DNA from: an uncultured Paracoccaceae bacterium
GTDB lineage: Bacteria > Pseudomonadota > Alphaproteobacteria > Rhodobacterales > Rhodobacteraceae
NCBI GenBank assembly: GCA_947493335.1
Contig: CANLQO010000005.1
Location: 1 to 64,000 of the forward strand
DNA: 64,000 nt
Direction: 5' to 3'
A program made the position numbers and the translations under genes. This document shows positions 31,388 to 64,000 of this stretch, piece after piece. The notes below the pieces were generated by a model that searched no databases, had not been told where the DNA came from, and saw only the letters and a program-made list of their open reading frames with translations. Position 1 is the first letter of the stretch; every line of letters starts with the position of its first letter.

Positions 31388-31402
31388 CTGGGAGATTAAT
31401 CA

Positions 31403-32401: not shown

Positions 32402-32408
32402 GCCCATC

Positions 32409-32436
32409 AAAGGCGCAGCCCACGGGTTGCGCCTTT
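32409..32436 (+). terminator. Intercistronic hairpin between binding protein and ATPase, copy 1
   Basis: AAAGGCGCA and TGCGCCTTT, nine-base arms around ten bases, followed by TTCCTTTC. Likely attenuates or stabilises mRNA so that the binding protein is made in excess. Present unchanged in copy 2. Confidence 0.6.
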
Positions 32437-32501
32437 TCCTTTCAGACAGCACAGACCTGACGATCAGGCTTTGCGCAAACATTCGATCATGAGGGGTAGC
32501 C

Positions 32502-33308: not shown

Positions 33309-34579
33309 CCGGCCTATTCGTACTGTTTATCTATGTCGGCATCTTTGTCGGCTCGTTCTTTGTGGTCACAAAGGTGGTCCAGAAGGCCACGCCGCAGGAT
33401 TACACCTCGCTCAAGACCGTCACCTTTGGGGATGAAAGCGCGGTGCGGCCCAACCGGTTCGCCGGGGTGCTCTCGATCCTGACGCTGTTTGTCATCTGGG
33501 GGATGTTCACCGGCTCGTCGCTGCTGCCAAGGTTCCTGCATGCGCCCGCGCCTTTTGTCGGCACCACCGAATTTACCTATACCGCCGAAGCAGATGGCAG
33601 TCAGGATGACGGCACCGTCACCGTGGTGGTCTACCCGCGCGAGGTCGAAACCGACGCGCCAGAGGTCGACCCCGGCGACGGCTTTGCCAAGAACGACAGC
33701 GCCGCGATCGCGCAGTGGCGGACCGGCCTGATCCGCGTCGACAGCAATGACGAGATCGGCCGCGGCGACGGCGCGACAGTGGTCGCCATCAACGGCACGC
33801 CGATTGCGCCGGGGGAAACCGTGCAGGTCGACAACGGCGCCGTGACCCTGTCGGACAAGGGCACGCCCAACTTTGCGCCCTACCGCGGATGGCAGATGGA
33901 ACCGCTGTATCTGCCGCCCCCCGAAGAGGTCTGGAAGCGGACGATGAACGTGATCAGTGACGGCTTCCGGAACTTCACGCTCTGGCAGCACCTGGGCTAC
34001 TCGCTGTTCCGCGTGATCGCAGGCTTCCTGCTGGGCGCGCTTGTGGGGATCCCGCTTGGCTATGCCATGGGCCTGAGCAACTGGTTCCGCGGCTGGTTCG
34101 ACCCGATCGTCGAATTTATGCGCCCGGTGCCGCCGCTGGCCCTGATCCCGCTGGTCATCATCTGGTTCGGCATTGGTGAGGTCGGCAAGATCATCCTGCT
34201 CTTTCTGGCCGCGCTCTGGATCATGGCCATCGCGGCCCGCTCGGGGGTCTCGGGGGTCAATATTTCCAAGGTGCACGCGGCCTACTCGCTGGGCGCCAGC
34301 AAGTGGCAGATCATGCGCCATGTGATCGTGCCCAACTCCCTGCCCGAGATCTTCACCGGTGCGCGGGTGGCCATGGGCGTGTGCTGGGGCACCGTTGTCG
34401 CCGCAGAGCTCGTCGCCGCCGAACAGGGCGCCGGAATGATGATCATGGTCGCCTCGCGCTTCCAGAACACCGACATCGTCATCCTCGGCATCATCCTCAT
34501 CGGCATCATCGGCTTCGGCATCGACATGCTCATGCGACAAGCCGAAAAATGGCTCGTACCTTGGAAAGGTAAGGCGTAG
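33305..34579 (+). CDS. tauC: Taurine-type ABC permease with large periplasmic insert, copy 1
   Basis: A 424-residue permease, much longer than the ~275 residues usual for TauC/SsuC. Residues ~3-23 and ~52-72 are two membrane spans. Residues ~80-205 form an acidic, soluble stretch (for example ADGSQDDGTVTVVVYPREVE) with a strand-rich look, probably periplasmic. The standard permease domain follows from ~215, with EAA loop AYSLGASKWQIMRHVIVPNS. It ends LVPWKGKA with stop TAG, whereas copy 2 has the same residues with different last codons and TGA. Confidence 0.88.
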   Translation: MTGLFVLFIYVGIFVGSFFVVTKVVQKATPQDYTSLKTVTFGDESAVRPNRFAGVLSILTLFVIWGMFTGSSLLPRFLHAPAPFVGTTEFTYTAEADGSQDDGTVTVVVYPREVETDAPEVDPGDGFAKNDSAAIAQWRTGLIRVDSNDEIGRGDGATVVAINGTPIAPGETVQVDNGAVTLSDKGTPNFAPYRGWQMEPLYLPPPEEVWKRTMNVISDGFRNFTLWQHLGYSLFRVIAGFLLGALVGIPLGYAMGLSNWFRGWFDPIVEFMRPVPPLALIPLVIIWFGIGEVGKIILLFLAALWIMAIAARSGVSGVNISKVHAAYSLGASKWQIMRHVIVPNSLPEIFTGARVAMGVCWGTVVAAELVAAEQGAGMMIMVASRFQNTDIVILGIILIGIIGFGIDMLMRQAEKWLVPWKGKA

Positions 34580-48560: not shown

Positions 48561-48579
48561 GCAGCTGGGAGATTAATCA

Positions 48580-49578
48580 ATGAAGAGAACTGCACTGGGG
48601 ATTGTTGCCGGTTTGGCGACTGCATTATCCACAACTGTTGCCACGGCGGATGGTCATGGCGAGATCACGGTGGCTTATTTTCTGGAGTGGCCGATGCCGA
48701 TGATGGCGGCCAAGGCGTCTGGGGCCTATGACGAGGCGCTTGGCATGAAGGTCAACTGGGTGTCCTTTGAGACCGGGACGGCGATGTCGGCGGCGATGGC
48801 GTCGGGCGATGTTCAGATCGCGCTGTCGCAGGGTGTGCCGCCCTTCGTTGTGGCCGCATCGGGTGGTCAGGACATTCAGATCGTTGACGTGGCCGTCAGC
48901 TATTCTGACAACGACAACTGCGTCGTGCACGCCGATCTGGAGATCGACAAGATGTCCGCAGGCGAACTGGCCGGCAAGAAGGTCGCCGTGCCGCTGGGAA
49001 CAGCTGCGCATTATGGCTTCCTGCGCCAGATGGATCACTTTGGCGTCGACCTGGCCAGCCTGTCCATCGTTGACATGCCTCCGCCCGAAGGTGCCAACGC
49101 ACTGGGCCAGAAGGCCGTTGACTTTGCCTGTGGCTACGGCGGTGGTCTGACAAGCATGAAAGAGCACGGCAACGTCCTGCTGACCGGTTCTGAAAAAGAA
49201 GCGCTCGGCATCCTGGTGTTCGACGTGACCTCGGCGCCGGCAGAGTTCATCGCCGAGAACGGTGACGTTGTTGCCAAGTTCCTGAAGGTGACGGCTGACG
49301 CCAACGCCGAATGGGCCGCAAACCCGTCCGACGAGATGCTGGCGGTGATCGCCGAGCAGGCCGGGATGGATCTGGACGCCGCCAAAGGCGCGATTGCGAC
49401 CATGGCGTTCCCATCGATCGAAGAGCAGCTGTCGAGCGCCTGGTTTGGCGGTAACGCAGCCCCCTTCCTGAAAGGTGTCGCTGACGTCTTCGTCGAAGCC
49501 GGTTCCATCGACAGCGCGCTGGACAGCTATGAGGACGCGATCAACACCGGGCCGCTGGAAGCCGCAGGCGCGATGTAA
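48580..49578 (+). CDS. tauA: Taurine-type ABC substrate-binding protein, copy 2
   Basis: A 332-residue protein identical to the product at 31403, including signal peptide and ribosome site. The gene is driven by a different promoter, with a TATAAT -10 box inside an inverted repeat. Because proteins are identical, the second copy adds dosage or a different induction signal, not a new specificity. It follows a DMT exporter gene on the same strand but probably has its own promoter. Confidence 0.85.
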   Translation: MKRTALGIVAGLATALSTTVATADGHGEITVAYFLEWPMPMMAAKASGAYDEALGMKVNWVSFETGTAMSAAMASGDVQIALSQGVPPFVVAASGGQDIQIVDVAVSYSDNDNCVVHADLEIDKMSAGELAGKKVAVPLGTAAHYGFLRQMDHFGVDLASLSIVDMPPPEGANALGQKAVDFACGYGGGLTSMKEHGNVLLTGSEKEALGILVFDVTSAPAEFIAENGDVVAKFLKVTADANAEWAANPSDEMLAVIAEQAGMDLDAAKGAIATMAFPSIEEQLSSAWFGGNAAPFLKGVADVFVEAGSIDSALDSYEDAINTGPLEAAGAM

Positions 49579-49585
49579 GCCCATC

Positions 49586-49613
49586 AAAGGCGCAGCCCAC
49601 GGGTTGCGCCTTT
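49586..49613 (+). terminator. Intercistronic hairpin between binding protein and ATPase, copy 2
   Basis: Same AAAGGCGCA/TGCGCCTTT hairpin as in copy 1, at the constant offset. Confidence 0.6.
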
Positions 49614-49678
49614 TCCTTTCAGACAGCACAGACCTGACGATCAGGCTTTGCGCAAACATTCGATCATGAGGGGTAGCC

Positions 49679-50485
49679 ATGACTGGTCTTGTACTGACGG
49701 ACGTGTCCATGCGGTTCGACCTGCCCAATGGAACATTTGTTCAGGCGCTCGAAAACGTCTCCCTGGACATGAAGGCCGGCGAATTGCTGAGCGTGCTGGG
49801 GCCATCGGGATGCGGGAAAACCACCCTTCTCAATATTGTTGCGGGCTTTCTGGCGCAGACCAGCGGCAAGATTGAACTGAACGGCCACGAAATCCACGGC
49901 CCCGACGCCGAGCGCGGCATGGTGTTCCAGAAGGGCGCCCTGTTCGAGTGGATGTCGGTGCGCGAGAACGTCGGCTTTGGCCCTTCGATGAAGGGCATGC
50001 CGCGGGGCGAAAAGACCGAAAAGGTCGACCATCTTCTCGATATTGTCGGCCTGCAGGACTTCAAGGAAAAGGCCGTCTACGAATTGTCGGGCGGGATGCA
50101 GCAGCGCGTGGCCCTGGCCCGCTGTCTTGCGAATGAACCGGACGTGATCCTGATGGATGAACCGCTGGGCGCGCTGGATGCGCTGACCCGCGAAAAGATG
50201 CAAAGCCTGGTGCTGAAGCTCTGGAAAGAGACCGGCAAGACGATCATCCTGATCACCCACTCGGTTGAAGAGGCGCTGTTGCTGGGCGAACGCCTGATCG
50301 TGATGGCCCCGCGTCCGGGCCGCATTCACAAGGAATACCGGCTGCCCTTTGCCGAACTTGGCGTGGGCGCGGATTTGCGCGAGGTCAAGAAACACGCAGA
50401 GTTCGGCCCGCGCCGCGAAGAGATCCTGGCGATGATCTGGGATATGGAAGAAGAAATCATGGGACGTACGGAGAACGCATCATGA
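49679..50485 (+). CDS. tauB: Taurine-type ABC ATP-binding protein, copy 2
   Basis: A 268-residue ATPase identical to that at 32502, with Walker A, signature and Walker B intact, so the copy is not decaying. Four-base overlap with the permease gene. ATPases of the two operons are interchangeable by sequence. Confidence 0.92.
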   Translation: MTGLVLTDVSMRFDLPNGTFVQALENVSLDMKAGELLSVLGPSGCGKTTLLNIVAGFLAQTSGKIELNGHEIHGPDAERGMVFQKGALFEWMSVRENVGFGPSMKGMPRGEKTEKVDHLLDIVGLQDFKEKAVYELSGGMQQRVALARCLANEPDVILMDEPLGALDALTREKMQSLVLKLWKETGKTIILITHSVEEALLLGERLIVMAPRPGRIHKEYRLPFAELGVGADLREVKKHAEFGPRREEILAMIWDMEEEIMGRTENAS

Positions 50486-51756
50486 CCGGCCTATTCGTAC
50501 TGTTTATCTATGTCGGCATCTTTGTCGGCTCGTTCTTTGTGGTCACAAAGGTGGTCCAGAAGGCCACGCCGCAGGATTACACCTCGCTCAAGACCGTCAC
50601 CTTTGGGGATGAAAGCGCGGTGCGGCCCAACCGGTTCGCCGGGGTGCTCTCGATCCTGACGCTGTTTGTCATCTGGGGGATGTTCACCGGCTCGTCGCTG
50701 CTGCCAAGGTTCCTGCATGCGCCCGCGCCTTTTGTCGGCACCACCGAATTTACCTATACCGCCGAAGCAGATGGCAGTCAGGATGACGGCACCGTCACCG
50801 TGGTGGTCTACCCGCGCGAGGTCGAAACCGACGCGCCAGAGGTCGACCCCGGCGACGGCTTTGCCAAGAACGACAGCGCCGCGATCGCGCAGTGGCGGAC
50901 CGGCCTGATCCGCGTCGACAGCAATGACGAGATCGGCCGCGGCGACGGCGCGACAGTGGTCGCCATCAACGGCACGCCGATTGCGCCGGGGGAAACCGTG
51001 CAGGTCGACAACGGCGCCGTGACCCTGTCGGACAAGGGCACGCCCAACTTTGCGCCCTACCGCGGATGGCAGATGGAACCGCTGTATCTGCCGCCCCCCG
51101 AAGAGGTCTGGAAGCGGACGATGAACGTGATCAGTGACGGCTTCCGGAACTTCACGCTCTGGCAGCACCTGGGCTACTCGCTGTTCCGCGTGATCGCAGG
51201 CTTCCTGCTGGGCGCGCTTGTGGGGATCCCGCTTGGCTATGCCATGGGCCTGAGCAACTGGTTCCGCGGCTGGTTCGACCCGATCGTCGAATTTATGCGC
51301 CCGGTGCCGCCGCTGGCCCTGATCCCGCTGGTCATCATCTGGTTCGGCATTGGTGAGGTCGGCAAGATCATCCTGCTCTTTCTGGCCGCGCTCTGGATCA
51401 TGGCCATCGCGGCCCGCTCGGGGGTCTCGGGGGTCAATATTTCCAAGGTGCACGCGGCCTACTCGCTGGGCGCCAGCAAGTGGCAGATCATGCGCCATGT
51501 GATCGTGCCCAACTCCCTGCCCGAGATCTTCACCGGTGCGCGGGTGGCCATGGGCGTGTGCTGGGGCACCGTTGTCGCCGCAGAGCTCGTCGCCGCCGAA
51601 CAGGGCGCCGGAATGATGATCATGGTCGCCTCGCGCTTCCAGAACACCGACATCGTCATCCTCGGCATCATCCTCATCGGCATCATCGGCTTCGGCATCG
51701 ACATGCTCATGCGACAAGCCGAAAAATGGCTCGTACCATGGAAAGGTAAAGCGTGA
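50482..51756 (+). CDS. tauC: Taurine-type ABC permease with large periplasmic insert, copy 2
   Basis: A 424-residue permease with the same protein sequence as the one at 33305, but silent differences in the last codons (CCA for CCT, AAA for AAG) and a TGA instead of TAG stop. These changes mark the end of the identical tract and suggest that the two operons were once more different. A terminator follows 25 bases later. Confidence 0.88.
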   Translation: MTGLFVLFIYVGIFVGSFFVVTKVVQKATPQDYTSLKTVTFGDESAVRPNRFAGVLSILTLFVIWGMFTGSSLLPRFLHAPAPFVGTTEFTYTAEADGSQDDGTVTVVVYPREVETDAPEVDPGDGFAKNDSAAIAQWRTGLIRVDSNDEIGRGDGATVVAINGTPIAPGETVQVDNGAVTLSDKGTPNFAPYRGWQMEPLYLPPPEEVWKRTMNVISDGFRNFTLWQHLGYSLFRVIAGFLLGALVGIPLGYAMGLSNWFRGWFDPIVEFMRPVPPLALIPLVIIWFGIGEVGKIILLFLAALWIMAIAARSGVSGVNISKVHAAYSLGASKWQIMRHVIVPNSLPEIFTGARVAMGVCWGTVVAAELVAAEQGAGMMIMVASRFQNTDIVILGIILIGIIGFGIDMLMRQAEKWLVPWKGKA

Positions 51757-51781: not shown

Positions 51782-51814
51782 AAACCCCCGCCGCAGATCG
51801 TCGGCGGGGTTTTT
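51782..51814. terminator. Rho-independent terminator after transporter operon 2
   Basis: AAACCCCCGCCG-N8-CGGCGGGGTTTTT, a GC-rich stem with T-run, unrelated to the terminator after copy 1. Confidence 0.85.
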
Positions 51815-51871: not shown

Positions 51872-54800
51872 CTAGAATTCCAGCGCGTATTCGGCGGTCG
51901 CGTTCATGCGGACCTGATCGCCGCCGCTGTCACTGGCCGTCGCCCCCATGCTTAGCATGCCCGGCCCACCCAGCGAGGTGCGATACCCCAGCCGCAGCGT
52001 TGTCGTCCGCGCGTCATCGGCGTCAATCTCATAAGACAGGGCAACATCAAACGTGCCGCCATTGGCAAACGCCATTTCTGTTCCAAATTCGACGGCACCG
52101 CCAAGCCCGCCAAGCCCGTCTTCTGTCACCACAAAGGTGGGCGCCAAGGGGCCAGCAGCCGCGAACGACGATGTCACGGATCGCACCCGATCCAAAAGCT
52201 CTCCGTTGACGGAGAGGCTGCCGTAGGCCGTCGACCGGACATTGTCCATCAGGTGAATAGGTCGCGAAGCCTTGACCCCCAGCACCAAAAGCAGACTGTC
52301 GTATTCTGAGGCATCAGTCGTCAGCGCCAGCCCATCACCGCCTGTTTCGGTGTAGCCATCAATCTTCATGTGCAGATAGTCCAGCCGTGTGAACCACGTC
52401 AGCAGCAGATCGTGGCGAATGTCCGCACGGCTCAGGCCGGTTTGATCGACCAGACTGCTGTAAGACAGCTGGGGCGCAATATTGATAAAGCGGGCATCAA
52501 AATCGGCAAAGGCCACCGTATCGACCGAGGTCGTGCTTAGATCGAACCGGATCACACGCTCTGAGGATAACTGCACTTTCCCGAACGCGGCAAAACCATC
52601 CAGGGTCAGGCCGGGGCGCAGGAAATCCTGCTGGCTGCCGTAAAGGATGTATTGCAGGCCAGACCCGGAAAGCGACCCCCCGTCAGAAAATGCGGTTTCG
52701 GTCTGGGAATATCCGATCGCACCGCCGATCACGCGGCCCCCTCCTGCGTCATAATCGGCCCCGGCCACCACATTGGTCGCCGTGATATCATAGCCCGATC
52801 GCGTCGCACTTTGCCCGCGTGTGGTCAGCGCAATCTGCCCCGAGACGAAGCCGCCCCAGACAGGATCAAACTGCGCCGTGCTGCCGATGCCATTTTCATC
52901 CAGCGACATGCCTATGGCGGCGCGCGCCACACGTGACAGGACATCAAGCGGCAGCGCTTCGCCATCAGCGATGATGCTCAACCCGCGGCCGTCAAACCCG
53001 CGCCCCGCGCCGCCACGCACTTGCGTCAGACGTTGATGCACCGCGCGCCCGATCCCGCGCGAAATGCGTTTGACCGCATCAACAGCGGCAAAGTGTTCCT
53101 CGTTCTGCAGGGCGCGGATGGTCTGTGTCAGATCCTCGCCCGCCTCGGCTGCAGCGATGATATTGCCGCAATGGGCCAGAAAGGCCTGACGGTCCGCCGT
53201 CTGCGCAAGGCCAGAGACGATAAGACAGCTTTCATCAAGAACCCCGGCAACCGCCTTCAACTCTGGCGCAGCGACAGCGTCGGACAGCACACCGCTGCCG
53301 AATTTGGTCAGTTGCAACCGGACCACCGCCGACGACCCGTTCACGCCATCAATGTCGGGGTTGCGGGCGGTGTATCCGATGAACACGTCGGAATTCAGCG
53401 CCTCGCTCGCTGTGAACTGGATGGTTTGGCCGACCACTCGTGTGGCCCCCTGCCCTTCACCCGGAGGCGCAGAGACCGTGACGGTTGTGCCATCGCCTGC
53501 GTTTGCGTCGTTCTCCAGCACCCGGATCGTGACCGTCTGCCCCGGTGCCACCGTGCCAAAGTCATCTGCCGCCAAAAGCCCCCCGGGCTTGACGACAGTC
53601 ACCGTCACCGTCGCCGTGGCACTGCCCACCGGATTGCGCGAGGTCGAGGTGTATTGAAAGCTGTCGGACCCGGTGAAACCTGCGTTCGGCGTATAAAGGA
53701 TTTGTTGGCCCTGTACCTTTGCTGTGCCATTGGCGGGCGCGGTTGTGGTCAGATCAACCTCCAGATTGCCGCGATCATTCTCAAGCACCGGCAAAAGCGT
53801 CGCCTTGCCGCCCTCGACATTGAACGTATCCGCCACCGCAATCGGCCGATCCTTTGACACCTCAACCACGATGCGGGTCGGCCCACTGGCCTGCGGGTAG
53901 AAACCCGGTACCTTTCGGATCTCACCACTCGCCGTTTTCGCACCCGAAATGTTCATCGGATAGGCCTCCAGCACGTAGCGGCCCGCTGGCACGGATTTGA
54001 CCAGACGCACCTGCCCGGCGGCGGTCACTTCAAAAGATCCGCCAAAATCATCGCGCAAATAGACGCTGTGCAGGGTTGAGACGTCACCATCCACGGTCAG
54101 GCCCGGCGAGTGCCGGATGGGCGTTTCATCGACAAAGCCGGGTTCATCGCTGGTCGACAGATACCGGACGATATCGCGTTCCAGAAACCGGGGCGCATAC
54201 TTCGGCTCGATCCGCTCAAGCCGCGCGCCGATATTGCCGCCCCGATCATCATTGCACAGGTCGCTACCAAACGGCGAAAAGTCCTTGGCAGCGTCGCAAT
54301 TCGGTTTGGCCGACAATAGGACGGTGGTGATGTTGTGGCAGGTAAAGCAGGCCGCCGGTTGAGAAGAGGCCATCTGGAAATCCGCAAGCGGATAAAGCTC
54401 TGCCAGACTATTGGCATAAAGCCCTGCAAGCGTGGTATGACTGACCGCTTGGCCAACAATTGTCAGCGTGCCCCTGACCGTCTTTGTCGACCCATTTCCG
54501 TCCGTGACGTCAAAGGCCACGACCACCGTCGCCACATCGCCCTCGGACAGGTCGCTTTCAAACTCCGGCGTCAGTTTCAGCGTCGTTCCGGCATTGATGA
54601 TCGACATTGTGCCATTGTCAAAAAGCGGCGCGCTTTGGCTTACAATGCTCAGGTTCGTGGCGGACAGCACATCGCTTGTGTCCGGATCGCTCCACATGGT
54701 TTTGGCCGCCAGATCAATCAGGACGGCACCATTGCCTTCATCCAGCGTGGCGGTGAAATCCTGCGCCGTCAGCGGGTCGTTCACGCCGGTGACCGTCACC

Positions 54801-56095
54801 GTCAGGCTGTTGGTAATCAGGTAAGTCTCACCCGTAACGGGCCGTGTCTGCACAATGTCATAGTCAAAGCTTTCGGTCGCAATCTGCCCGGCTGCAAGGC
54901 TGGTAAAAACTGCTGCATCCGCGATGCCAAAATCATTCCCGGTCAACGTGAACTGCGGCGTGCTGCTCAGATCGGGGCGAATATCACCCACCGACAATGC
55001 GTCGCCGTCGGGGTCGTTAAACGGCGTGCCGCCATCGCTTTCGGTCAGGTCTGTTGATGTGGGCAGCGCGCCTGCCGAAACGCTCAGCGTCCGGGCCGAG
55101 ATTGCGGGCTGCACGTTTGTGCCGGTCTCAGGCACCCCATCCACTTTGATTTTCACTGTCCCGCTTGCGGTATCTGTGCCGTCGGTGACGTCAAACGCAA
55201 AGGTGACCGTGCGGCTTTCACCGGCGTTAAGCGCGTCAAACCCGGTGGGCAAAAAGCTTAGCACACCAGCCGATGACAAGGCCGGTGACAACGCATAGCT
55301 ACCCGTATCCAGCGCGTTCGTCTCGGTGCGGATTTCCTGCACGGTGACGCTGGTGGTGACACCCGTCAGCGTGTCACCGTCAGGGTCCGAAAAGCTGCCA
55401 AGCAAGATCGCGGTTTGATATCGCCCGGTCTGATTGTCGTCGGTATCCGGCTGCGCAGGGATTCCGCCGCTCAACACCGGCACCCGATTAACGGTCAGGG
55501 TCAACTGATTTGGAAACGTCGCACTGTTCCTGTAGTTGGCCGTATTCTTTGCAATGATGCGAAACGTTGCCGTGGCGCCGGGCGTCAGGGTGCCAATCGT
55601 CAGATTGCCGTTTGTCTTTGCACTGACAAGGCTTGTAGCCGGGGAAACCGTCGCTTCATTGATGCTGGCATTGCCACCGGTCGGGAACCGTCCGCCCGTC
55701 GTCAGGATGCTGATATCGCCGGTCCGGCTTGGTGAAATCTTCAGACTTTGGTTGCTGGTTTCTGCGAATGCGTTCGCGGTTGGCTCAAAGCCATCCAGCT
55801 CTCCGACTTCGCGAATGTGCGCCCGTAAAGTTGAAGTATCAAAGGGCTTCGGCCACCGCGCGACAAGACTGGTGCCAAAGTTGTTTCGCGTGGGTTTGCC
55901 ATCGCTGTCAAAGACACTGCCCGCGTTGACATGGCAGCCATTGCAGGTCGGGCTTGCACTGCCGAAATCCGGGTAGACCGCGTTGAATTCACTATTGAAC
56001 GACGACAGGGCCGTTGCAATTTGCGGCATGACCATGACGGCAAGCACCGCGACAACACGCGGCATGCGGGAAAAGGCGCGCCAAAAATCAGACAT
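51872..56095 (-). CDS. Exported autotransporter-like protein with two c-type haem motifs and cadherin/Ig-like repeats
   Basis: A 1407-residue protein. Signal peptide: MPRVVAVLAVMVMPQIATA at residues 11-29 (Met1 or Met11 may be the start). The haem-binding motif CNGCH is at 51-55 and a second one, CFTCH, at 583-587 (DNA 54335-54349). Between them are cadherin-like repeats (FSDPDGDTLTG, FNDPDGDALSVGD, MWSDPDTSDVLSATN). From ~745 to ~900 there are two Ig-like units of the tandem-95 kind (AVADTFNVEGG; LAADDFGTVAPGQ). A helical linker follows. Residues ~1125-1407 form an autotransporter beta-barrel (ADYDAGGGRVIGGAIGYSQT), ending in Phe. This implies outer-membrane insertion and a surface passenger with covalent haem. 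The function is unknown: electron transfer, redox sensing or peroxidase are options. Confidence 0.75.
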   Translation of the reverse strand: MSDFWRAFSRMPRVVAVLAVMVMPQIATALSSFNSEFNAVYPDFGSASPTCNGCHVNAGSVFDSDGKPTRNNFGTSLVARWPKPFDTSTLRAHIREVGELDGFEPTANAFAETSNQSLKISPSRTGDISILTTGGRFPTGGNASINEATVSPATSLVSAKTNGNLTIGTLTPGATATFRIIAKNTANYRNSATFPNQLTLTVNRVPVLSGGIPAQPDTDDNQTGRYQTAILLGSFSDPDGDTLTGVTTSVTVQEIRTETNALDTGSYALSPALSSAGVLSFLPTGFDALNAGESRTVTFAFDVTDGTDTASGTVKIKVDGVPETGTNVQPAISARTLSVSAGALPTSTDLTESDGGTPFNDPDGDALSVGDIRPDLSSTPQFTLTGNDFGIADAAVFTSLAAGQIATESFDYDIVQTRPVTGETYLITNSLTVTVTGVNDPLTAQDFTATLDEGNGAVLIDLAAKTMWSDPDTSDVLSATNLSIVSQSAPLFDNGTMSIINAGTTLKLTPEFESDLSEGDVATVVVAFDVTDGNGSTKTVRGTLTIVGQAVSHTTLAGLYANSLAELYPLADFQMASSQPAACFTCHNITTVLLSAKPNCDAAKDFSPFGSDLCNDDRGGNIGARLERIEPKYAPRFLERDIVRYLSTSDEPGFVDETPIRHSPGLTVDGDVSTLHSVYLRDDFGGSFEVTAAGQVRLVKSVPAGRYVLEAYPMNISGAKTASGEIRKVPGFYPQASGPTRIVVEVSKDRPIAVADTFNVEGGKATLLPVLENDRGNLEVDLTTTAPANGTAKVQGQQILYTPNAGFTGSDSFQYTSTSRNPVGSATATVTVTVVKPGGLLAADDFGTVAPGQTVTIRVLENDANAGDGTTVTVSAPPGEGQGATRVVGQTIQFTASEALNSDVFIGYTARNPDIDGVNGSSAVVRLQLTKFGSGVLSDAVAAPELKAVAGVLDESCLIVSGLAQTADRQAFLAHCGNIIAAAEAGEDLTQTIRALQNEEHFAAVDAVKRISRGIGRAVHQRLTQVRGGAGRGFDGRGLSIIADGEALPLDVLSRVARAAIGMSLDENGIGSTAQFDPVWGGFVSGQIALTTRGQSATRSGYDITATNVVAGADYDAGGGRVIGGAIGYSQTETAFSDGGSLSGSGLQYILYGSQQDFLRPGLTLDGFAAFGKVQLSSERVIRFDLSTTSVDTVAFADFDARFINIAPQLSYSSLVDQTGLSRADIRHDLLLTWFTRLDYLHMKIDGYTETGGDGLALTTDASEYDSLLLVLGVKASRPIHLMDNVRSTAYGSLSVNGELLDRVRSVTSSFAAAGPLAPTFVVTEDGLGGLGGAVEFGTEMAFANGGTFDVALSYEIDADDARTTTLRLGYRTSLGGPGMLSMGATASDSGGDQVRMNATAEYALEF

Positions 56096-56256: not shown

Positions 56257-57783
56257 TCAGATTGCCTGCCTCAAGAAGTCGCGGTGCCGCAGCGCGACGC
56301 GGGCCGCCGCACTGAATTCAGCATCCAATCCCGCAATCGCCGTGCGGGCCAGTTTGCGGTTCTGCGCAGTTCCCAACGCCGCTTTGCTGGGCCCTTTCGG
56401 CAACAGGCCCAGACCGTCAAGAACCGGCGTATATAACTGTTCCTCCACATGCGGCAGACCCCGCGGCAACGGGGTGAAATCCGCGCGCGAAATGGCGCGG
56501 TTGTGCCATTGCGCGATGCGGTCGCGCTGTGCGGGCGCAATGCCATTCTGCGTCACCTCCCGCCAGAAATCGGTGTCCGTGCGACCCCCGGCATAGTGCA
56601 GGTTGATGAACTGGGCAAAATCGTCGACCTGTCGGGCCACAGTCTCGTTGAAATCGCGTATGGCACCCGGTGAAACGCCTTCCGCCAGCTGCCTTGGCTG
56701 GTGCCGCAACAGCAACAGCAACTGCACCAATGTGCCGTGGATCGACGTCGCCTCCAGCGGTTCAAGAAAACTTTGCGCCAGTCCCAGCGCCACGCAATTC
56801 CCGATCCACGCGTGGCGCAGCCGACCGGGGTTGATGTCGATCACCCGCCGCACGTCAATCGGGCGGCGCAGCTTTGCCTCGATCTCGGCCTGTGCCGTCT
56901 CTGGCGTCAGATATGCGTCTGAAAACACATAACCACACCCCATCCGGTCCTGCACGGGAATACCCCACATCCAGCCCGCCCCCATGGCCTGCGCCAACGT
57001 ATAGGGTGCGATGTCCGCCTGTGGGTCGTGATCAAGCCAGAACGGCATCGCCTTATTCAGTGGCAACATGTCGGCATAGGACACCCAAGTGCTGCCCATC
57101 TGGCTGATGATGGCGCGCCGAAACCCGGTGCAGTCAACCACAAGATCGACCGGTATCCGTAGCTCATCGGTGCAGCGCAGCGCCGTGATCCGGCCGCTGT
57201 TGGTGTCGCGGTCCAGCGCCTCAACCTCGGTCTTGATATGCCGGATGCCCTTGGCCTTGCTGGCCAAAAACCGGCCCAACCGCGCCTGATCGAAATGATA
57301 GGCGTGGTGATAGGCGCTCAGCGCAAGAAGCCGCCCCCCCTTCTGCGCAAAGGCCGACCTGTTGCCGCGCATCAGCCGGGTGAAAAGATGCAGATCGGCG
57401 ACGTTCCTGCCGCCCGCAATCTGCGCGTGATGCAGCCAATTCGCTGGCAGACCAGCGGGCACCGGGCCCATCACATTGGGATCATCAATGGGCCCAAAGT
57501 AGTCTTTGCCATCCTTGCGCCAACCCGCATGCCTGATCCCGAATTTCAGCGTCGCCCCGGTCTCGCGCAGAAACGCCATCTCGTCGATGCCAAGGTCCAG
57601 CAGGACCTGTCTGAAAACAGAGGTCGACCCCTCCCCCACCCCCACGGTCGGAATATTGGGGCTTTCGATCACAGAGATGCGCGGGCCATTGGCACCTTGC
57701 GATGCCTTTTGCAGCATCAGGGCGGCCAGCCAACCGGCCGTGCCGCCGCCGACAATGGCGATGTGCGTCTCTTTTGGCGTCAT
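56257..57783 (-). CDS. FAD-dependent tryptophan-halogenase-like protein
   Basis: A 508-residue flavoprotein from the ATG at 57783, which overlaps the stop of the glycosidase gene (TGATG); upstream in-frame starts lie inside that gene. FAD motif HIAIVGGGTAGWLAALMLQ, VGVGEGSTSV, the conserved Lys in ETGATLKFGIRHAGW (the Lys that holds hypohalous acid in halogenases), and the halogenase signature GWMWGIPVQDRMGCGYVFSD (Trp-x-Trp-x-Ile-Pro). It should need a flavin reductase, none of which is adjacent. The substrate is unknown. In carbohydrate-use clusters of other bacteria, such genes occur without known halogenation, so the actual reaction is open. Confidence 0.85.
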   Translation of the reverse strand: MTPKETHIAIVGGGTAGWLAALMLQKASQGANGPRISVIESPNIPTVGVGEGSTSVFRQVLLDLGIDEMAFLRETGATLKFGIRHAGWRKDGKDYFGPIDDPNVMGPVPAGLPANWLHHAQIAGGRNVADLHLFTRLMRGNRSAFAQKGGRLLALSAYHHAYHFDQARLGRFLASKAKGIRHIKTEVEALDRDTNSGRITALRCTDELRIPVDLVVDCTGFRRAIISQMGSTWVSYADMLPLNKAMPFWLDHDPQADIAPYTLAQAMGAGWMWGIPVQDRMGCGYVFSDAYLTPETAQAEIEAKLRRPIDVRRVIDINPGRLRHAWIGNCVALGLAQSFLEPLEATSIHGTLVQLLLLLRHQPRQLAEGVSPGAIRDFNETVARQVDDFAQFINLHYAGGRTDTDFWREVTQNGIAPAQRDRIAQWHNRAISRADFTPLPRGLPHVEEQLYTPVLDGLGLLPKGPSKAALGTAQNRKLARTAIAGLDAEFSAAARVALRHRDFLRQAI

Positions 57784-59156
57784 CACGCCACTTTGGCAGC
57801 TTTCTTCAACCTTGCCCACTGCGGCAGCCAGTCCGCGTGGGCGGCCCTCAGATCGTCCACAAGCTCCCAAATCTGGTCGAGGTCCAGTTCAGCCGCAGTA
57901 TGGGGGTCCATCATGGCGGCGTGATAGATGTGGCGCGGGTCTTCGGTCATCAACGCCTCAACCACAAGGCCCTGCACTGTCACGTTTGATTGCATGATCG
58001 CGGCCAGTTGCGGGGGCAATGTGCCGTAGCGGGTGGGTTGAACACCGTTGCCATCGACAAGGCAGGCGACTTCAACCGCGCAGCCCTGCGGCAGGTTGTC
58101 GATCAGCCCTTGGTTGGCAACATTGCCATGGATCACGGACGGCACCCCGGTCCAGATCGAATTGATGATCTCTGACGCATATTCGTGGCTCTCCTTCAGC
58201 TCCATCTTGTCTTCGGTCGACAACCGCTCACGCTCCTCGGCCCAATTTGCGATCTGCTCGACGCACCGTTCGGGATATTCATCCAGCGGGATCTGGAACC
58301 GATCAAGGATGTCCTCGCGGCCGTCCTTGATGAACCACGGGACGTATTCGGCAAAATGTTCCGAGCTTTCGGTGACAAAATACCCCAGCTTCTTCATCAT
58401 CTCGTAGCGGACAAAGTTGGGGCAGCGCGGGTTGTGCCGATTTTCCTTAGGCGCCCGTCCGTCGCGGTAAGCGGCGTGCAGATCAGGGTATAGATCACGG
58501 CGACTGCCGTCAGGCATCTGCTGCTCGAACTTGGTGAAGAACGCGATGTGATTGATGCCCGCGCATTCATAGCGCAGCGTCTTGGGATCAAGATCAAGAT
58601 CATGGGCAAGTTCTTCACAGGTGCCTTGCACCGAATGGCACAGGCCGACCTGCCGGATCGCGGGAAACTTGCGGGCGATCGCCCAGGTATTCATCGCCAT
58701 CGGGTTAACGTACTGCAGCATCGTGGCGTTGGGGCAAACCTCGGACATGTCCTCGCAAATGGACCACAAATGCGGAATCGTTCGCAGGCCGCGCATGATG
58801 CCGCCGATGCCAAGTGTGTCGGCAATCGTCTGACGCAATCCAAACTTCTTGGGCAGTTCGAAATCGGTAATCGTGCAGGGATCATAGCCCCCGATCTGAA
58901 AGGCCACGACGACGAAATGCGCGTCCTGCAACGCTGCCCGCTGGTCGGTGTGACTGGTGATCCGGGCACCACAGCCAAGGGTTTCGACCATGCGGTCCGC
59001 GATGGCCTTGGATTCGGCCAGCCGTGTTGCGTCGATATCCATCAGTGCCACATGCGCGTCGCGCAATGCAGGCCGCTGCAGGACGTCGCCCACGATATTG
59101 CGCATGAACACGGCTGAGCCTGCGCCGATAAAGGTGATCTTGGGTGTCTGGGTCAT
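57783..59156 (-). CDS. Family 4 glycoside hydrolase (alpha-galactosidase MelA-like)
   Basis: A 457-residue NAD- and Mn-dependent glycosidase from the ATG at 59156; a longer frame to 59276 has no start support. N-terminal NAD motif TFIGAGSAVFMRNIVGDVL. The GH4 metal-site residues are in GLCHSVQGTCEEL (Cys-His) and AGINHIAFFTKF (His). VNPMAMNTWAIAR is also typical. The CHSVQGT form is that of alpha-galactosidase or glucuronidase-type members rather than 6-phospho-glucosidases (CN motif). It works in the cytoplasm on intact sugar brought in by the adjoining Opp-type transporter. Confidence 0.9.
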   Translation of the reverse strand: MTQTPKITFIGAGSAVFMRNIVGDVLQRPALRDAHVALMDIDATRLAESKAIADRMVETLGCGARITSHTDQRAALQDAHFVVVAFQIGGYDPCTITDFELPKKFGLRQTIADTLGIGGIMRGLRTIPHLWSICEDMSEVCPNATMLQYVNPMAMNTWAIARKFPAIRQVGLCHSVQGTCEELAHDLDLDPKTLRYECAGINHIAFFTKFEQQMPDGSRRDLYPDLHAAYRDGRAPKENRHNPRCPNFVRYEMMKKLGYFVTESSEHFAEYVPWFIKDGREDILDRFQIPLDEYPERCVEQIANWAEERERLSTEDKMELKESHEYASEIINSIWTGVPSVIHGNVANQGLIDNLPQGCAVEVACLVDGNGVQPTRYGTLPPQLAAIMQSNVTVQGLVVEALMTEDPRHIYHAAMMDPHTAAELDLDQIWELVDDLRAAHADWLPQWARLKKAAKVA

Positions 59157-59244
59157 CTCACTTGATCCTCGAGCATTGTCCGCCCCTTTATGTCGCGACC
59201 CGTGGCCCGGGTCTTGCCAATGAAGGTCAATTGTTTCCGGAAAA

Positions 59245-60858
59245 TCACGCGACGACCTTAAAGGCAGCATCCACAAGCCGCTGCGTATAGGCCGTGCGGG
59301 GTGCGGTCAGAACCTCATCGGTCGGCCCCGCCTCCATCACCTTGCCGTGCTGCATGACAATCACGTTGTGGCACAGCGCCTGCACGACCTTCAGGTCGTG
59401 GCTGATGAACAGATAGCTCAGCCCCCGCTTGCGCCGCAAATCACGCAACAGTTCGATGATCTGCGCCTGAATCGACAGATCAAGCGCCGAGGTCGGCTCG
59501 TCCAGCAGAATGAACTCCGGGTCAAGCGCGATGGCTCGGGCAATCGCCAGACGCTGCCGCTGCCCGCCCGAAAATTCGTGCGGGAACCGGTCCAGCGCGC
59601 TGTGCGGCATCTTCACGTCATCAAGCGCCTGCCGGATCACGGCGTCACGCTCTTTCGCTGATGCCATGCCGTTCACCACCAGCCCCTCCTCCAGAATCTG
59701 GCGGATAATCATCCGTGGATTCAACGATGAAAACGGGTCCTGAAACACCACCTGCATCCGGGTGCGATAGGGCTGCAGCTGTTTGCGGTTCAGCGCTTCG
59801 ATCCGGTCGCCCTGAAAGGTGATCTGGCCCGACTGAAAGACCCCCAGCCGGATCAGCGCCATGGCGAACGTCGTCTTGCCTGATCCGCTCTCACCCACGA
59901 CACCGACGGTTTCTCCCTTTCGCACACAGGCTGACACCTGATCGACCGCCTTCAGGTCGACCGACATGGGGTTGAAGAACCCGCCGGTCTTCAGCTTGAA
60001 AGTCACGCACATATCGCGCCCCTCCAGAACCGGCGGGGCGTCCGGGTCCAGCGGATCGGGCAGACCCTTGGGTTCGCTTGCAATCAGGTGCTTTGTGTAG
60101 GGATGCTGCGGATTGGCAAAAACCTCTTGCGTGATGCCTCGTTCCACAACCTCACCCCGGCGCATCACCACCACCCTGTCAGACACCCGGCTGACCACCG
60201 TCAGATCATGCGTGATCAGGATCACCGCCATATTATGCTTTTGTTGCAATTGCTTAAGCAGCGACAAGATTTCTGCCTGCACGGTAACATCCAGCGCCGT
60301 TGTCGGCTCATCCGCGATCAGAAGATCAGGATTGTTGGCCAGCGCCATTGCAATCATCACCCGCTGCCGCTGCCCGCCTGACATCTCGTGCGGGTATTGA
60401 TCGTGCCGCCGCTCTGGGTCGGGCAATTGCACCTCTTTCAGCAGACGGATCACCTCTGCCCGCAGGTCCTTTTTCGAAATGTCGCGATGCACGCGGATGA
60501 TTTCGCCCACCTGATCGCCGATCTTGTAGATCGGATTGAGACTGGTCAGCGGTTCCTGAAAGATCATCGAAATGCGCTTGCCCCGGATCTTTTGCAGTTC
60601 AAGCTCTGACCAGGTGGCCAGATCATCGCCGTCAAAGATCACTCGGGTATCGTCACCCACAATGGCATTTGGCGCCAGCATTCCCATGATTGCCCGCGCC
60701 GTGACCGATTTGCCGGACCCGCTTTCGCCCACAACGGCCAGAGTTTCGCCCCGGTTCACCGCATAGCTGACGTCCTTGACGGCCTGGGTCGTGCCAACAG
60801 CGGTGCGGAATGAGACCGCAACATTTTCAACAGAGAGCAGAGGATCAGTCATTTGCAT
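59245..60858 (-). CDS. Opp/Dpp-type ABC transporter, fused dual ATPase
   Basis: A 537-residue protein with two ATPase domains in tandem. First: GESGSGKSVTARAIMGML, LSGG-type MSGGQRQRVMIAMALANNPD, Walker B LLIADEP. Second (from ~270): GESGSGKTTFAMALIRLG, FSGGQRQRLAIARAIALDPE, FILLDEP. This DppD-DppF fusion is common in alphaproteobacterial peptide/opine/alpha-galactoside importers. It overlaps the upstream permease gene by 14 bases. ATG at 60852 is an alternative start. Confidence 0.93.
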   Translation of the reverse strand: MQMTDPLLSVENVAVSFRTAVGTTQAVKDVSYAVNRGETLAVVGESGSGKSVTARAIMGMLAPNAIVGDDTRVIFDGDDLATWSELELQKIRGKRISMIFQEPLTSLNPIYKIGDQVGEIIRVHRDISKKDLRAEVIRLLKEVQLPDPERRHDQYPHEMSGGQRQRVMIAMALANNPDLLIADEPTTALDVTVQAEILSLLKQLQQKHNMAVILITHDLTVVSRVSDRVVVMRRGEVVERGITQEVFANPQHPYTKHLIASEPKGLPDPLDPDAPPVLEGRDMCVTFKLKTGGFFNPMSVDLKAVDQVSACVRKGETVGVVGESGSGKTTFAMALIRLGVFQSGQITFQGDRIEALNRKQLQPYRTRMQVVFQDPFSSLNPRMIIRQILEEGLVVNGMASAKERDAVIRQALDDVKMPHSALDRFPHEFSGGQRQRLAIARAIALDPEFILLDEPTSALDLSIQAQIIELLRDLRRKRGLSYLFISHDLKVVQALCHNVIVMQHGKVMEAGPTDEVLTAPRTAYTQRLVDAAFKVVA

Positions 60859-61978
60859 AAGGGTCCATTGCGTCGCGCATTCCGTCTCCCAACGCGTTAA
60901 ACGCCAGCACCGACAGGATAATCATGCCCACCGGGGCCAACAGCCACGGGGCCGCCGCGAGTGATTGAAAATCGCGCACTGCATTCAGCATGACACCCCA
61001 GCTGACCAGCGGTTGCTGGATGCCAACCCCAAGGAAGGACAGAAAGCTTTCCAGCAGGATCACCTCTGGCAGGACATAGGTGGCCCAGACGATGATATGC
61101 GACGACATGTTGGGAATGATGTGGCGCAGAATGATACGCTTGTCGCTGGCCCCCACCGCCACGGCAGAGCGGACAAATTCGACCGACCGGATCGCGATCA
61201 CCTTGCCGCGCAATTCTCGTGCCAGATTGGCCCATTGCAGCAACACCAGAATGCCTGCGAACATGATGAACGTCGTCATCGGGTCGGCATTGCGTGGCAG
61301 CACCGCAACCAGCGCCAGATAAAGTGGCAGATCGGGGAATGATTTTACAAACTCGATCACCCGCTGAATGACGGTATCGGTCCGCCCCCCGAAATAGCCC
61401 GAGGCGGTGCCGATCAGCGTTCCGATCAGACAGGCGCAGCCCATGACCAGAAACCCCATCATCAAGGTGATCCGCGCGCCGTAAACCATCCGGCTGAACA
61501 CATCCCGGCCAAGCCCGTCGGTCCCCAGCAGGTGAATAAATTCACCCTCCGCCCCACCAAACAGATGGGTCGTGAATGTCATGCCTAGAAAGGTATAGGC
61601 AGGGCCCTGCGCAAACATCTCCAGCTTGACGGCCTTGTCGTAAGACGGCGCAAACGTGATCTCGAATGTATTGGGGTCCATGACCTCTTCAAAGCCCAGC
61701 ACAAAGGGCGTTGTCAGGCTGCCGTCTTCGGTGAAGATGCGCAGGGTCTGCGGCGGGCTATAGATCGCCGTGCGGTCCTTGGTGTCGACCGCATAGGGCG
61801 CGATGAAGCCGGCAAAAATGGCCATGACCAAAATCAGAAGCGACATGATCAGCCCGGCCATACCATAGCGGTTGCGCCGGAACCTGCGGCGCACAAGTTG
61901 CCAGTATGACAGGGACGGGCCGGTGGCGGCCTCGGCATTCATATCCAGATCAAGCGGGTCGGGTGTGATATCTGTCAT
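60845..61978 (-). CDS. Opp/Dpp-type ABC permease (DppC-like)
   Basis: A 377-residue permease, longer than the usual ~300 because of a ~90-residue periplasmic stretch between the first span (GMAGLIMSLLILVMAIFAGF) and the core. Core spans follow, with EAA loop AVAVGASDKRIILRHIIPNM and the GTDGLGRDVFSRMVYGARIT segment diagnostic of DppC. Starts three bases after the DppB-like gene. Confidence 0.92.
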   Translation of the reverse strand: MTDITPDPLDLDMNAEAATGPSLSYWQLVRRRFRRNRYGMAGLIMSLLILVMAIFAGFIAPYAVDTKDRTAIYSPPQTLRIFTEDGSLTTPFVLGFEEVMDPNTFEITFAPSYDKAVKLEMFAQGPAYTFLGMTFTTHLFGGAEGEFIHLLGTDGLGRDVFSRMVYGARITLMMGFLVMGCACLIGTLIGTASGYFGGRTDTVIQRVIEFVKSFPDLPLYLALVAVLPRNADPMTTFIMFAGILVLLQWANLARELRGKVIAIRSVEFVRSAVAVGASDKRIILRHIIPNMSSHIIVWATYVLPEVILLESFLSFLGVGIQQPLVSWGVMLNAVRDFQSLAAAPWLLAPVGMIILSVLAFNALGDGMRDAMDPYAND

Positions 61979-61981
61979 GAC

Positions 61982-63001
61982 CTACCCCGACACCGTCGCA
62001 CGGCGCACCCGCGGATCAATCAGCGCAAGAATGATATCGGCAATCAGATTGCCAATCACCAGCAGCACGGCCACCAGCAGAAAGATCGCGGCGATCACAT
62101 ACATATCGCGGTCCGTCACGGACGAGATAATCAGCGGCCCAAGTGTCGGGATGCCCAGCACCAGCGCGATCTCAATCTCGCCCTTGATCATGTAGTCAAA
62201 GCGATTGCCAATATTCATCACCACCGGATGCAATGCATTCGGGACGGCGTGGCGGAACAACACCTTGCGCCGCCCCAATCCCTTGGCCCGTGCGGTTTCA
62301 ATGTATTGCGCGTTCATCACGTCCAGCAGGTTGCCGCGCATCATACGGGTCGTATAGGCCTGCCCGGCCCAGATCGAGACCAGCAGGATCGGCCAGACAT
62401 GCAGAAACAGGTTCCACAGCTTCGCAAGCGACATGCCTTCCTGCACCTGAAACTGCGGTGAATAAAGCGCGCCGATATAGGGAGAGTGCCAGACAAAGGC
62501 CAACAGATAGAGCAGGATCAGCGCGATCACGAATTTCGGGATCACAATCCCCAGAAAGGCCACAAGCGTCGCCACCGTGTCGCCCCAGCGGTACTGGTTG
62601 GTGGCGGCATAGATGCCCAGAAAGACACCAATGGTCTGCCCGACGACAAGCGTGACAAGTGCGATGCCAATCGTGCGCCACAGCCGCAGGTCGATCACCT
62701 CGGTGACGGGTCGGTTTTGGGTAAAGGACATGCCGAAATCACCGGCAAAGACGATGTTCTTGATCCAGACCCAGTATTGCACATAAAGCGGCTGATCGAG
62801 GCCAAGCCGTTCGCGCATCAACTCTGCCTGCGGCATCAGCGCCTCTCGGCTTTGTCCTGTCTGCGCCATCGTGCGGCCCAGCCAGCCATCGACAAAATCG
62901 CCCGGCACGGCAGTGATGATCAGAAATGTCGCAATGGATATGCCGATCAACAGCGGAATCGTGATCAGGATCCGATACGCAATGAATTGCAGAAATGCCA
63001 A
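61982..63001 (-). CDS. Opp/Dpp-type ABC permease (DppB-like)
   Basis: A 339-residue permease. It begins with TTG at 63001 behind GGAGGG; no ATG is suitably placed. The first span is ILITIPLLIGISIATFLIIT, followed by PGDFVDGWLG as usual in DppB. Core spans and an EAA loop ETARAKGLGRRKVLFRHAVP are present. Follows the binding-protein gene by 76 bases. Confidence 0.92.
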   Translation of the reverse strand: MAFLQFIAYRILITIPLLIGISIATFLIITAVPGDFVDGWLGRTMAQTGQSREALMPQAELMRERLGLDQPLYVQYWVWIKNIVFAGDFGMSFTQNRPVTEVIDLRLWRTIGIALVTLVVGQTIGVFLGIYAATNQYRWGDTVATLVAFLGIVIPKFVIALILLYLLAFVWHSPYIGALYSPQFQVQEGMSLAKLWNLFLHVWPILLVSIWAGQAYTTRMMRGNLLDVMNAQYIETARAKGLGRRKVLFRHAVPNALHPVVMNIGNRFDYMIKGEIEIALVLGIPTLGPLIISSVTDRDMYVIAAIFLLVAVLLVIGNLIADIILALIDPRVRRATVSG

Positions 63002-63077
63002 TGAACGCCCTCCCCAGCGGCCATAGAGGCGCGGCCATCAGTCATGACAGCCGCGCCAATCCCACGATAGTTACGGA

Positions 63078-64000
63078 TCAGTATTCCGCAATCGTATCAG
63101 GGAGGACCTCTTCTTCCTGCATCGCGGCAGGTGTCCACAGACGTTCACGGATCACACCATCCTCGGCCCATTCGTACATAAAGACAGGCGTGCCGGGGTG
63201 CGCGTTCTTGATCCGCTTGTTGACCAGCAGGGCCGCAGGCACCTGCACCGAACCGATGGTATAGACATTTTCGGTTGCGATCCGTTGCAGATCACGGGCC
63301 AGCGCGGCCTGCTCTTCTGCATCGCTGGTGGACTGGAATGCCGCCAGTTTCGCCGCCATTTCCTCTTCGAACGGCAAGCGATCACCGCCGTCGTTGAAGT
63401 GCGGACAGCTTGGACCCGCAGGCCAGCTGCGGCAGCTTTCACGCGTCGGCAAGATCACGTTTTCGCGGCCCATCACGGCCGTAAAGGCCCCACCGGTAAA
63501 GTTGGTATCGGCTGTGGTCTGGTCCACCGTGCGGATGTTGATGCGAATGCCAATCTCTTCCAGCTGCGACGCAATGGCCTCAAGCTGTTTGCGGTCAGCA
63601 TTGGCGTTGTCACCGACCTCGACCGAGATCACGACATTGTCGCCGCCGCCGGGCAGGTTGCGCACGCCATCACCGTCCGTGTCTGTCACGTCCAGACCGT
63701 CCAGCAGTGCCATGGCACCTGCCTGATCGTAGGGCGTGAAGACGGAAGAGGCGGCGTCATAATACGGCGACCCCGTCGCAAAACCGCCCACATAGGGATA
63801 GGCAAACGGCCCACGGGCCAGCGCCTGACCGATCGCATCACGATCCAGCGCGTGGCTCAGCGCCTTGCGGAAATCAAGCTCCCGGAACAGCATCCGCAGC
63901 GCCTTTTCGCCCTCATCCTCGGCACCTGCGGCATCAAGGTTCAGTGTCAGACGCCAGGCCAGAACGCGGGGGCCAAAGTTCGCCCGCACCGGGCTTGCAT
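63078..64000 (-). CDS. Family 5 extracellular solute-binding protein, C-terminal part
   Basis: The 3' ~307 codons of a gene entering from the right edge; the N-terminus with signal peptide lies outside. Family 5 (DppA/OppA/AgpA) features are visible: FRELDFRKALSHALDRDAIG, then GPFAYPYVGGF, and EEIGIRINIRTVDQTTADTN. An Asp-rich loop DVTDTDGDGVRNLPGGGD resembles a calcium-binding segment. With the GH4 enzyme it may bind an alpha-galactoside, as AgpA does in rhizobia, rather than a peptide (inference). Confidence 0.88.
   Translation of the reverse strand, partial: ASPVRANFGPRVLAWRLTLNLDAAGAEDEGEKALRMLFRELDFRKALSHALDRDAIGQALARGPFAYPYVGGFATGSPYYDAASSVFTPYDQAGAMALLDGLDVTDTDGDGVRNLPGGGDNVVISVEVGDNANADRKQLEAIASQLEEIGIRINIRTVDQTTADTNFTGGAFTAVMGRENVILPTRESCRSWPAGPSCPHFNDGGDRLPFEEEMAAKLAAFQSTSDAEEQAALARDLQRIATENVYTIGSVQVPAALLVNKRIKNAHPGTPVFMYEWAEDGVIRERLWTPAAMQEEEVLPDTIAEY

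Follow-up and report, generated by a model that had tools for sequence, protein, structure and literature searches.

The 64,000-nucleotide window analyzed here (uncultured Paracoccaceae bacterium, GenBank assembly GCA_947493335.1, contig CANLQO010000005.1, positions 1 to 64,000) carries on its minus strand a gene for a type Va autotransporter with two CxxCH motifs in its passenger (Table 1). The gene is an intact frame of 1407 codons, starting with an ATG at 56095 and ending at 51872, while the plus strand over the same interval contains many stops. Its GC content at codon positions 1, 2 and 3 is 0.605, 0.506 and 0.688, following the same order (position 2 lowest, position 3 highest) as in the seven neighboring genes compared, which supports this frame as coding. 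The overall GC content resembles that of the flanks. GC3 lies slightly under all seven neighbors (0.694 to 0.849) and GC2 slightly above all of them, an offset that hints only weakly, if at all, at foreign origin. The initial annotation had described this single frame with CNGCH at residue 51 and CFTCH at residue 583, and had proposed that the protein, if functional, would place haem on the outer surface. Translation confirmed the frame and both motifs, and the proposal itself is partly supported by the analysis that follows.

Table 1. Features of the autotransporter gene and its downstream border (positions in the window).
Feature	Positions	Strand	Basis
Whole gene, autotransporter with two CxxCH motifs, 1407 aa	51872..56095	minus	Frame translation and Pfam
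Signal peptide, residues 1–29	56009..56095	minus	By eye, from sequence
Segment D1, residues 30–110, first CxxCH segment	55766..56008	minus	Boundaries drawn by us; no significant family match
CNGCH, residues 51–55	55931..55945	minus	Sequence scan
His93, sole other D1 histidine, candidate distal ligand	55817..55819	minus	Position observed, role inferred
Ig/cadherin-like repeats, residues 111–544, no Cys or His	54464..55765	minus	Pfam and residue count
Segment D2, residues 545–680, second CxxCH segment	54056..54463	minus	Boundaries drawn by us; no family match
CFTCH, residues 583–587	54335..54349	minus	Sequence scan
Cys600–Cys614, possible disulphide loop in D2	54254..54298	minus	Positions observed, disulphide inferred
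Big_9 Ig domain, residues 749–833, best of four stretches	53597..53851	minus	Pfam
Cys957–Cys976 pair in linker before barrel	53168..53227	minus	Positions observed
PF03797 autotransporter β-domain, residues 1091–1351	52043..52825	minus	Pfam
Terminator-like inverted repeat, 8 G-C pairs	51786..51809	none	Pattern only

The C-terminal barrel that had been predicted for this protein is present, as Pfam assigns residues 1091–1351 of 1407 to the Autotransporter family (PF03797) with an E of 1.3e-27 and 97.6 bits against a cut-off of 26. The predicted cadherin-like and tandem-95-like repeats were recovered in part: Cadherin_5 (27.4 bits, cut-off 26.5) and Cadherin_4 (25.9 bits, cut-off 25.1) are both barely above threshold and Big_9 (PF17963) matches with an E of 4.1e-22 in stretches reaching to about residue 930, whereas the NCBI tandem-95 model scored 41.2 bits, under its cut-off of 90. 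The signal peptide looks right by eye, with an Arg/Met-rich start, a hydrophobic stretch (VVAVLAVMV) and A-T-A before L30. We drew the domain borders outside the Pfam matches. CNGCH begins 21 residues past the presumed cleavage site, and D1 is set apart from D2 by Ig-like repeats that total about 430 residues and perhaps make up four domains. Within residues 30–930, all six cysteines and all six histidines fall in D1 and D2, with neither residue in the Ig and Big_9 stretches; apart from its motif, D2 contains the histidines His553, His662 and His676, and Met575. A cysteine pair before the barrel is also found in another autotransporter frame, L003, with 21 residues between the two cysteines versus 18 here. 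The type Va architecture, comprising an exported chain, two CxxCH motifs, Ig-like repeats and a classical barrel, is real, with the signal peptide assigned by eye and arrival at the surface predicted.

Two CxxCH motifs are very unlikely to arise by chance in a protein of this composition. Among 200,000 composition shuffles with its eight cysteines, none contained two motifs and 68 contained at least one. CxxCH is likewise missing from the 31 other PF03797-barrel frames that we compared (28,096 residues from 19 related genomes), in which cysteines number 0 to 10 per frame and CxxC not followed by His occurs in three. These frames run from stop to stop and represent 30 places plus L003. In all, 41 genomes were searched for PF03797, and 19 of them supplied these frames. 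The search gave 36 places in all, from which we omitted the present gene, two in G051 and one in G021 (internal stop), and one sub-cut-off place in G018; a weak place in G012 under the cut-off (L185) was kept.

Haem binding is plausible, given the Ccm proteins of the genome and the histidines close to the two motifs. An exported CxxCH in a genome that encodes the Ccm system is likely to be a haem site. The same genome encodes CcmF/CcmC-type proteins (two PF01578 matches, in frames of 656 and 245 codons) and CcmH (one PF03918 match); therefore, an exported CxxCH would meet haem-attachment machinery. In addition, we scored the segments with a profile grown from A3, the family described below. 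It combines 40 domains, most of which are secreted and 39 of which have CxxCH, and by eye includes at least three outsiders: L135, a dihaem protein of peroxidase-like type, L136, a cytochrome c′-like end, and one stretch lacking CxxCH. D1 shows a weak likeness to this set, as only 20 of 1000 shuffles that kept the motif matched or beat it. Against the 926 frames of the window, this profile ranked the autotransporter on top, at a marginal level (E 0.0055 for the whole protein, E 0.18 for the best stretch).

A number of results weigh against haem binding. No cytochrome family in Pfam or NCBIfam exceeded its threshold for this protein; the matches driven by CxxCH stayed below it (Paired_CXXCH_1, E 0.34; GSu_C4xC__C2xCH, E 0.5), so that the domain search returned the autotransporter and cadherin-type families expected by the initial annotation, with cytochrome c families at sub-threshold level only. 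A PDB search yielded four chance-level matches for D1 (E 0.82 and worse), three being cytochromes, and none for D2. Single-sequence structure models reached a pLDDT of only 38 and 37 and were unusable, hence uninformative on axial ligands. Unlike D1, D2 did not stand out against the 40-domain profile (435 of 1000 shuffles at or above its score), and hhalign of D1 against that profile returned a probability of 13%. Clustering of histidines near the motifs is weak, with p values of 0.13, 0.18, 0.08 and 0.015 within ±40, ±50, ±80 and ±95 residues, respectively, in a post hoc test where the pattern was noticed first and p depends on the distance chosen. None of the seven neighboring proteins scanned is a cytochrome or electron-transfer partner. 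An origin of D1 and D2 by internal duplication was also rejected: their identity of 30–35% in a two-row gapped alignment is no better than that of shuffles, which scored as high in 2960 of 5000 cases (gap cost 11/1) and 1385 of 5000 (8/1) with the motif kept, and in 4426 and 1899 of 5000, respectively, with the motif masked. In both segments, the motif is preceded by YP and followed by FG. The loose YP-before-CxxCH pattern occurs in 14 of 104 CxxCH examined, many of which belong to the A3 family or to copies of the autotransporter gene, and we make no claim from it.

Conservation gave no help to the haem interpretation either, as a search of 295 genomes from the family matched D1 and D2 each to their own genome only, leaving no orthologue in which to assess the motifs. 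At E ≤ 1e-5, the whole protein matched 36 of 398 genomes of the phylum, its own included (at most two candidates scored per genome), with all matches elsewhere confined to the barrel or to the parts of Big_9 or cadherin type. In the same 398 genomes, with at most 14 candidates scored per genome, a two-row profile combining D1 with D2 reached E ≤ 0.001 in the genome of the autotransporter only and E ≤ 1 in 81; at the 29 new loci examined (L056–L084), the few nearby CxxCH reflect chance or an unrelated multihaem protein. Whole-protein searches of the genus genomes and of a set of relatives returned only generic Big_9, cadherin or barrel matches and antisense or chance matches. For the whole protein, plasmid records contained no match at E 1e-5. 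When E up to 10 was allowed, D1 matched seven plasmid records, two under features annotated as cytochrome c (E 0.4 and 4), and D2 matched five, of which the best had an E of 0.3 and none lay under a cytochrome. Two scans of genome contigs, covering the whole protein and D2, and one of viral contigs with the whole protein revealed no true relative, though these scans require an exact peptide and distant orthologues could escape them. Two candidates were rejected by eye: a genome-contig match (L085) antisense to a pyrD-like gene, and a match in G001:C1 (L012) antisense to a TRAP-transporter region.

We compared the protein with known systems, drawing on excerpts of the papers cited. It shares the barrel, the linker with a cysteine pair, the signal peptide and a repeat passenger with classical type Va autotransporters (PF03797 with Ig/cadherin-like passengers), and differs from them by the two passenger CxxCH, which none of the 31 comparison frames has. 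MtrC/OmcA and the porin–cytochrome complexes also present haem at the surface, with β-domains beside the haem domains, but they are multihaem systems with separate porin and cytochrome chains, in contrast to two isolated CxxCH joined to an autotransporter barrel. Hbp, the haemoglobin protease, is likewise an autotransporter and is described as haem-binding; it is a serine protease, whereas the protein here is built of Ig repeats. The haem of Hbp is taken from haemoglobin and bound without CxxCH. Cyc2, a fused cytochrome–porin, resembles our protein in combining a signal peptide, an N-terminal CxxCH and an outer-membrane barrel in a single chain (PMC8406198). It has a 16-strand porin and one haem, with AXPXFAR[Q/K][T/Y] before CXXCH and PXL four residues after (PMC8406198). 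By eye, both Cyc2 motifs are absent around the D1 and D2 sites, and Pfam listed no porin family for the barrel at E up to 10, the barrel being PF03797, unlike that of Cyc2. Production of Cyc2 in a laboratory E. coli strain that carried a ccm plasmid has been described (PMC8406198). IcsA is similar in having few cysteines and a short-spaced pair, Cys375/Cys379, whose disulphide is retained after translocation, besides one lone cysteine (PMC9769942). With three residues between them, these cysteines do not form a CxxC, which the present protein has.

Among the titles and abstract openings listed in literature searches on autotransporters, CXXCH, cytochromes and haem, no natural autotransporter cytochrome appeared, subscription papers and preprints being outside the scope of these searches. 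The excerpted text of one paper treats autotransporters and CXXCH separately (PMC3543383), and the word "cytochrome" is absent from the main text of two reviews of autotransporter function, where mentions of haem concern haem-binding Hbp (PMC9289746, PMC6555100).

The A3 family, found in G399 and in eight genomes from genus g392 of family f61, resembles D1 in its position after the signal peptide and in an F-N-x-x-Y...CxxCH pattern. D1 and D2, unlike A3 proteins, lack a DSDGDG-like acidic end (by eye), and a search with A3 found no match in the genome of the autotransporter at E ≤ 0.01. The family (L118–L122, L126–L134 and further loci to L155) consists of short, exported-looking and often clustered proteins with one CxxCH, [FY]G and the DSDGDG-like motif, several of which end in sorting-type C-terminal tails by eye. 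At E ≤ 0.01, matches occur in 12 of 239 genomes (three only weakly), with up to five per genome. From their sequences, these look like surface-sorted monohaem proteins, and one of them, L120, resembles the Cyc2 cytochrome motif by eye. Temptin_C served only as the route to this family. A link between Temptin_C and the autotransporter was rejected: a Temptin_C consensus gave an E of 0.0021 and 19 bits against a cut-off of 27, D1 and D2 gave no match, and the cut-off was reached in none of 249 genomes.

The explanation that we rank first, at somewhat under even confidence, is a type Va autotransporter that would display two separate covalent c-type haem segments, loaded before passage through the outer membrane. 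The fuller claim, a naturally occurring c-type cytochrome secreted by the type V route with covalent haems at two sites of an unfolded passenger, both of which are carried through the outer membrane, we hold more tentatively. The chain, judged by its signal peptide, would be exported by Sec. In the periplasm, Ccm would join haem covalently to Cys51/Cys54 and Cys583/Cys586 on the still unfolded chain, and DsbA-type oxidation would close the short loops Cys600–Cys614 and Cys957–Cys976. In the general autotransporter model, passage starts at the C-terminal end of the passenger. After insertion of the PF03797 barrel, the second haem would thus emerge before the first. Outside the cell, D1 would sit at the tip and D2 in the middle of the stalk, with Ig-like spacers, and His93, together with His553 or His662, would be candidate distal ligands. 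Since the intervening Ig repeats separate the two segments so widely, direct electron passage between the two haems of one molecule appears implausible. No indication of a path across the barrel was found, and a role as an electron conduit or in electron export is unlikely; a more likely role would be local surface chemistry involving redox reactions, peroxide or small ligands.

The initial annotation considered this combination mechanistically puzzling, because type V secretion normally passes unfolded passengers whereas c-type haem is attached and folded in the periplasm. We regard the conflict as softer than that. Ccm acts on unfolded chains. Autotransporter passengers are also kept unfolded (PMC4736170), and the two points together favor haem loading before passage. 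Small disulphide loops cross via autotransporters (PMC9769942), and cytochrome P450 1A2, a haem b enzyme, was displayed in active form by an engineered autotransporter unit, for which the cell's own haem route was far more effective than added haem (PMC4736170). Hbp transport, on the other hand, is largely incompatible with rigid, bulky structure, although a single disulphide pair within a side domain was tolerated (PMC3521207). An unfolded chain with haem at CxxCH ranks between the tolerated loops and the rigid structures.

The gene lies 161 bases after a tryptophan-halogenase-type gene, itself behind a GH4 glycosidase and a peptide-type ABC transporter. These form an operon at 56257–64000, in which the halogenase-type protein is an FAD protein; the role of a halogenase in an apparent glycan-uptake operon is unclear. 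A relative, G002, keeps this operon at 75–78% DNA identity without the autotransporter, which is therefore accessory and not tied to the operon; there, the operon has as neighbors a MalK-type gene and, on the opposite strand, a GH42 gene. On the other side, the terminator-like repeat sits between the autotransporter gene and a convergent permease gene, in a region with seven terminator-like sites versus 5.1 expected. A 3190-bp direct duplication (31388–34577 and 48565–51754; two mismatches, dissimilar flanks) carries genes for an NMT1-type binding protein, an ABC-type ATPase (by eye) and a permease, and its second copy stops just short of this repeat. Plasmids from various genera (Pantoea, Rhizobium, Ruegeria, Sulfitobacter and others) match short stretches of the window. 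At another place in the genome, G000:C1:1338566-1339522, a 2515-codon frame has similar Ig/cadherin-like repeats (E 9e-4) and no PF03797 match.

The closest rival to the two-haem reading, and only somewhat less probable, is an adhesin-type surface protein with Ig/cadherin repeats that binds no haem, in which the CxxC pairs would be tight disulphide or metal loops. CxxC is oxidized by DsbA in the periplasm, and loops of short span can cross the outer membrane. The eight cysteines fit four short-spaced pairs accordingly: 51/54 and 583/586 with 2 residues between them, 600/614 with 13 and 957/976 with 18. Short-spaced pairs are also present in several comparison frames, three of which have CxxC without His, and the lack of a cytochrome family match points the same way. 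What this explanation leaves unaccounted for is the His that follows both CxxC, an arrangement that none of the comparison frames shows, and exported CxxCH in genomes with Ccm are likely to carry haem. For the disulphide reading, that of IcsA Cys375/Cys379 provides a precedent (PMC9769942).

Haem could instead be attached and kept in the periplasm, through stalled translocation or because D1 never moved out, making the protein an outer-membrane-anchored periplasmic cytochrome. The barrier to rigid, bulky structure in Hbp (PMC3521207), the far N-terminal position of D1, which would cross last, and the precedent of haem and an outer-membrane barrel in one chain of Cyc2 (PMC8406198) all suit this option. 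We judge it improbable, as Ig/cadherin repeats between the sites are typical of surface stalks and some at least partly folded passengers are reported to cross (PMC1533851). The gene might also be a recently acquired or decaying accessory element, poorly or not expressed and with no present role. Consistent with this, no other PF03797 match occurs in its own genome or among the six genomes examined from the genus, it is absent beside the same operon in G002, GC3 is slightly lower than in seven neighbors, and no full-length relative appeared in genomes, plasmids, or genome and viral contigs. However, an intact frame of 1407 codons with a coding-type GC pattern and a barrel well above the family cut-off make this the least probable of the alternatives, and a very improbable one. 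The proposed display of covalent haem at the surface by a type Va autotransporter is partly supported, by the architecture, the Ccm proteins and the histidines near both motifs, against which stand the missing cytochrome family match, the lack of orthologues in the genomes searched and the unusable models.

The case rests on one orphan gene, and its significance depends on whether haem is bound. The limit on folded or bulky structure in autotransporters has been argued largely from engineered passengers (PMC1533851). If no haem is bound, the gene would show how easily surface proteins can be misnamed by counting CxxCH motifs. If the proposed display of covalent haem is true, a native passenger of this kind would be a natural and easily stained probe of the translocation limit, the translocating barrel would let a chain with covalent haem through, and the bacterium would possess a single-chain route for surface haem without a porin–cytochrome complex.

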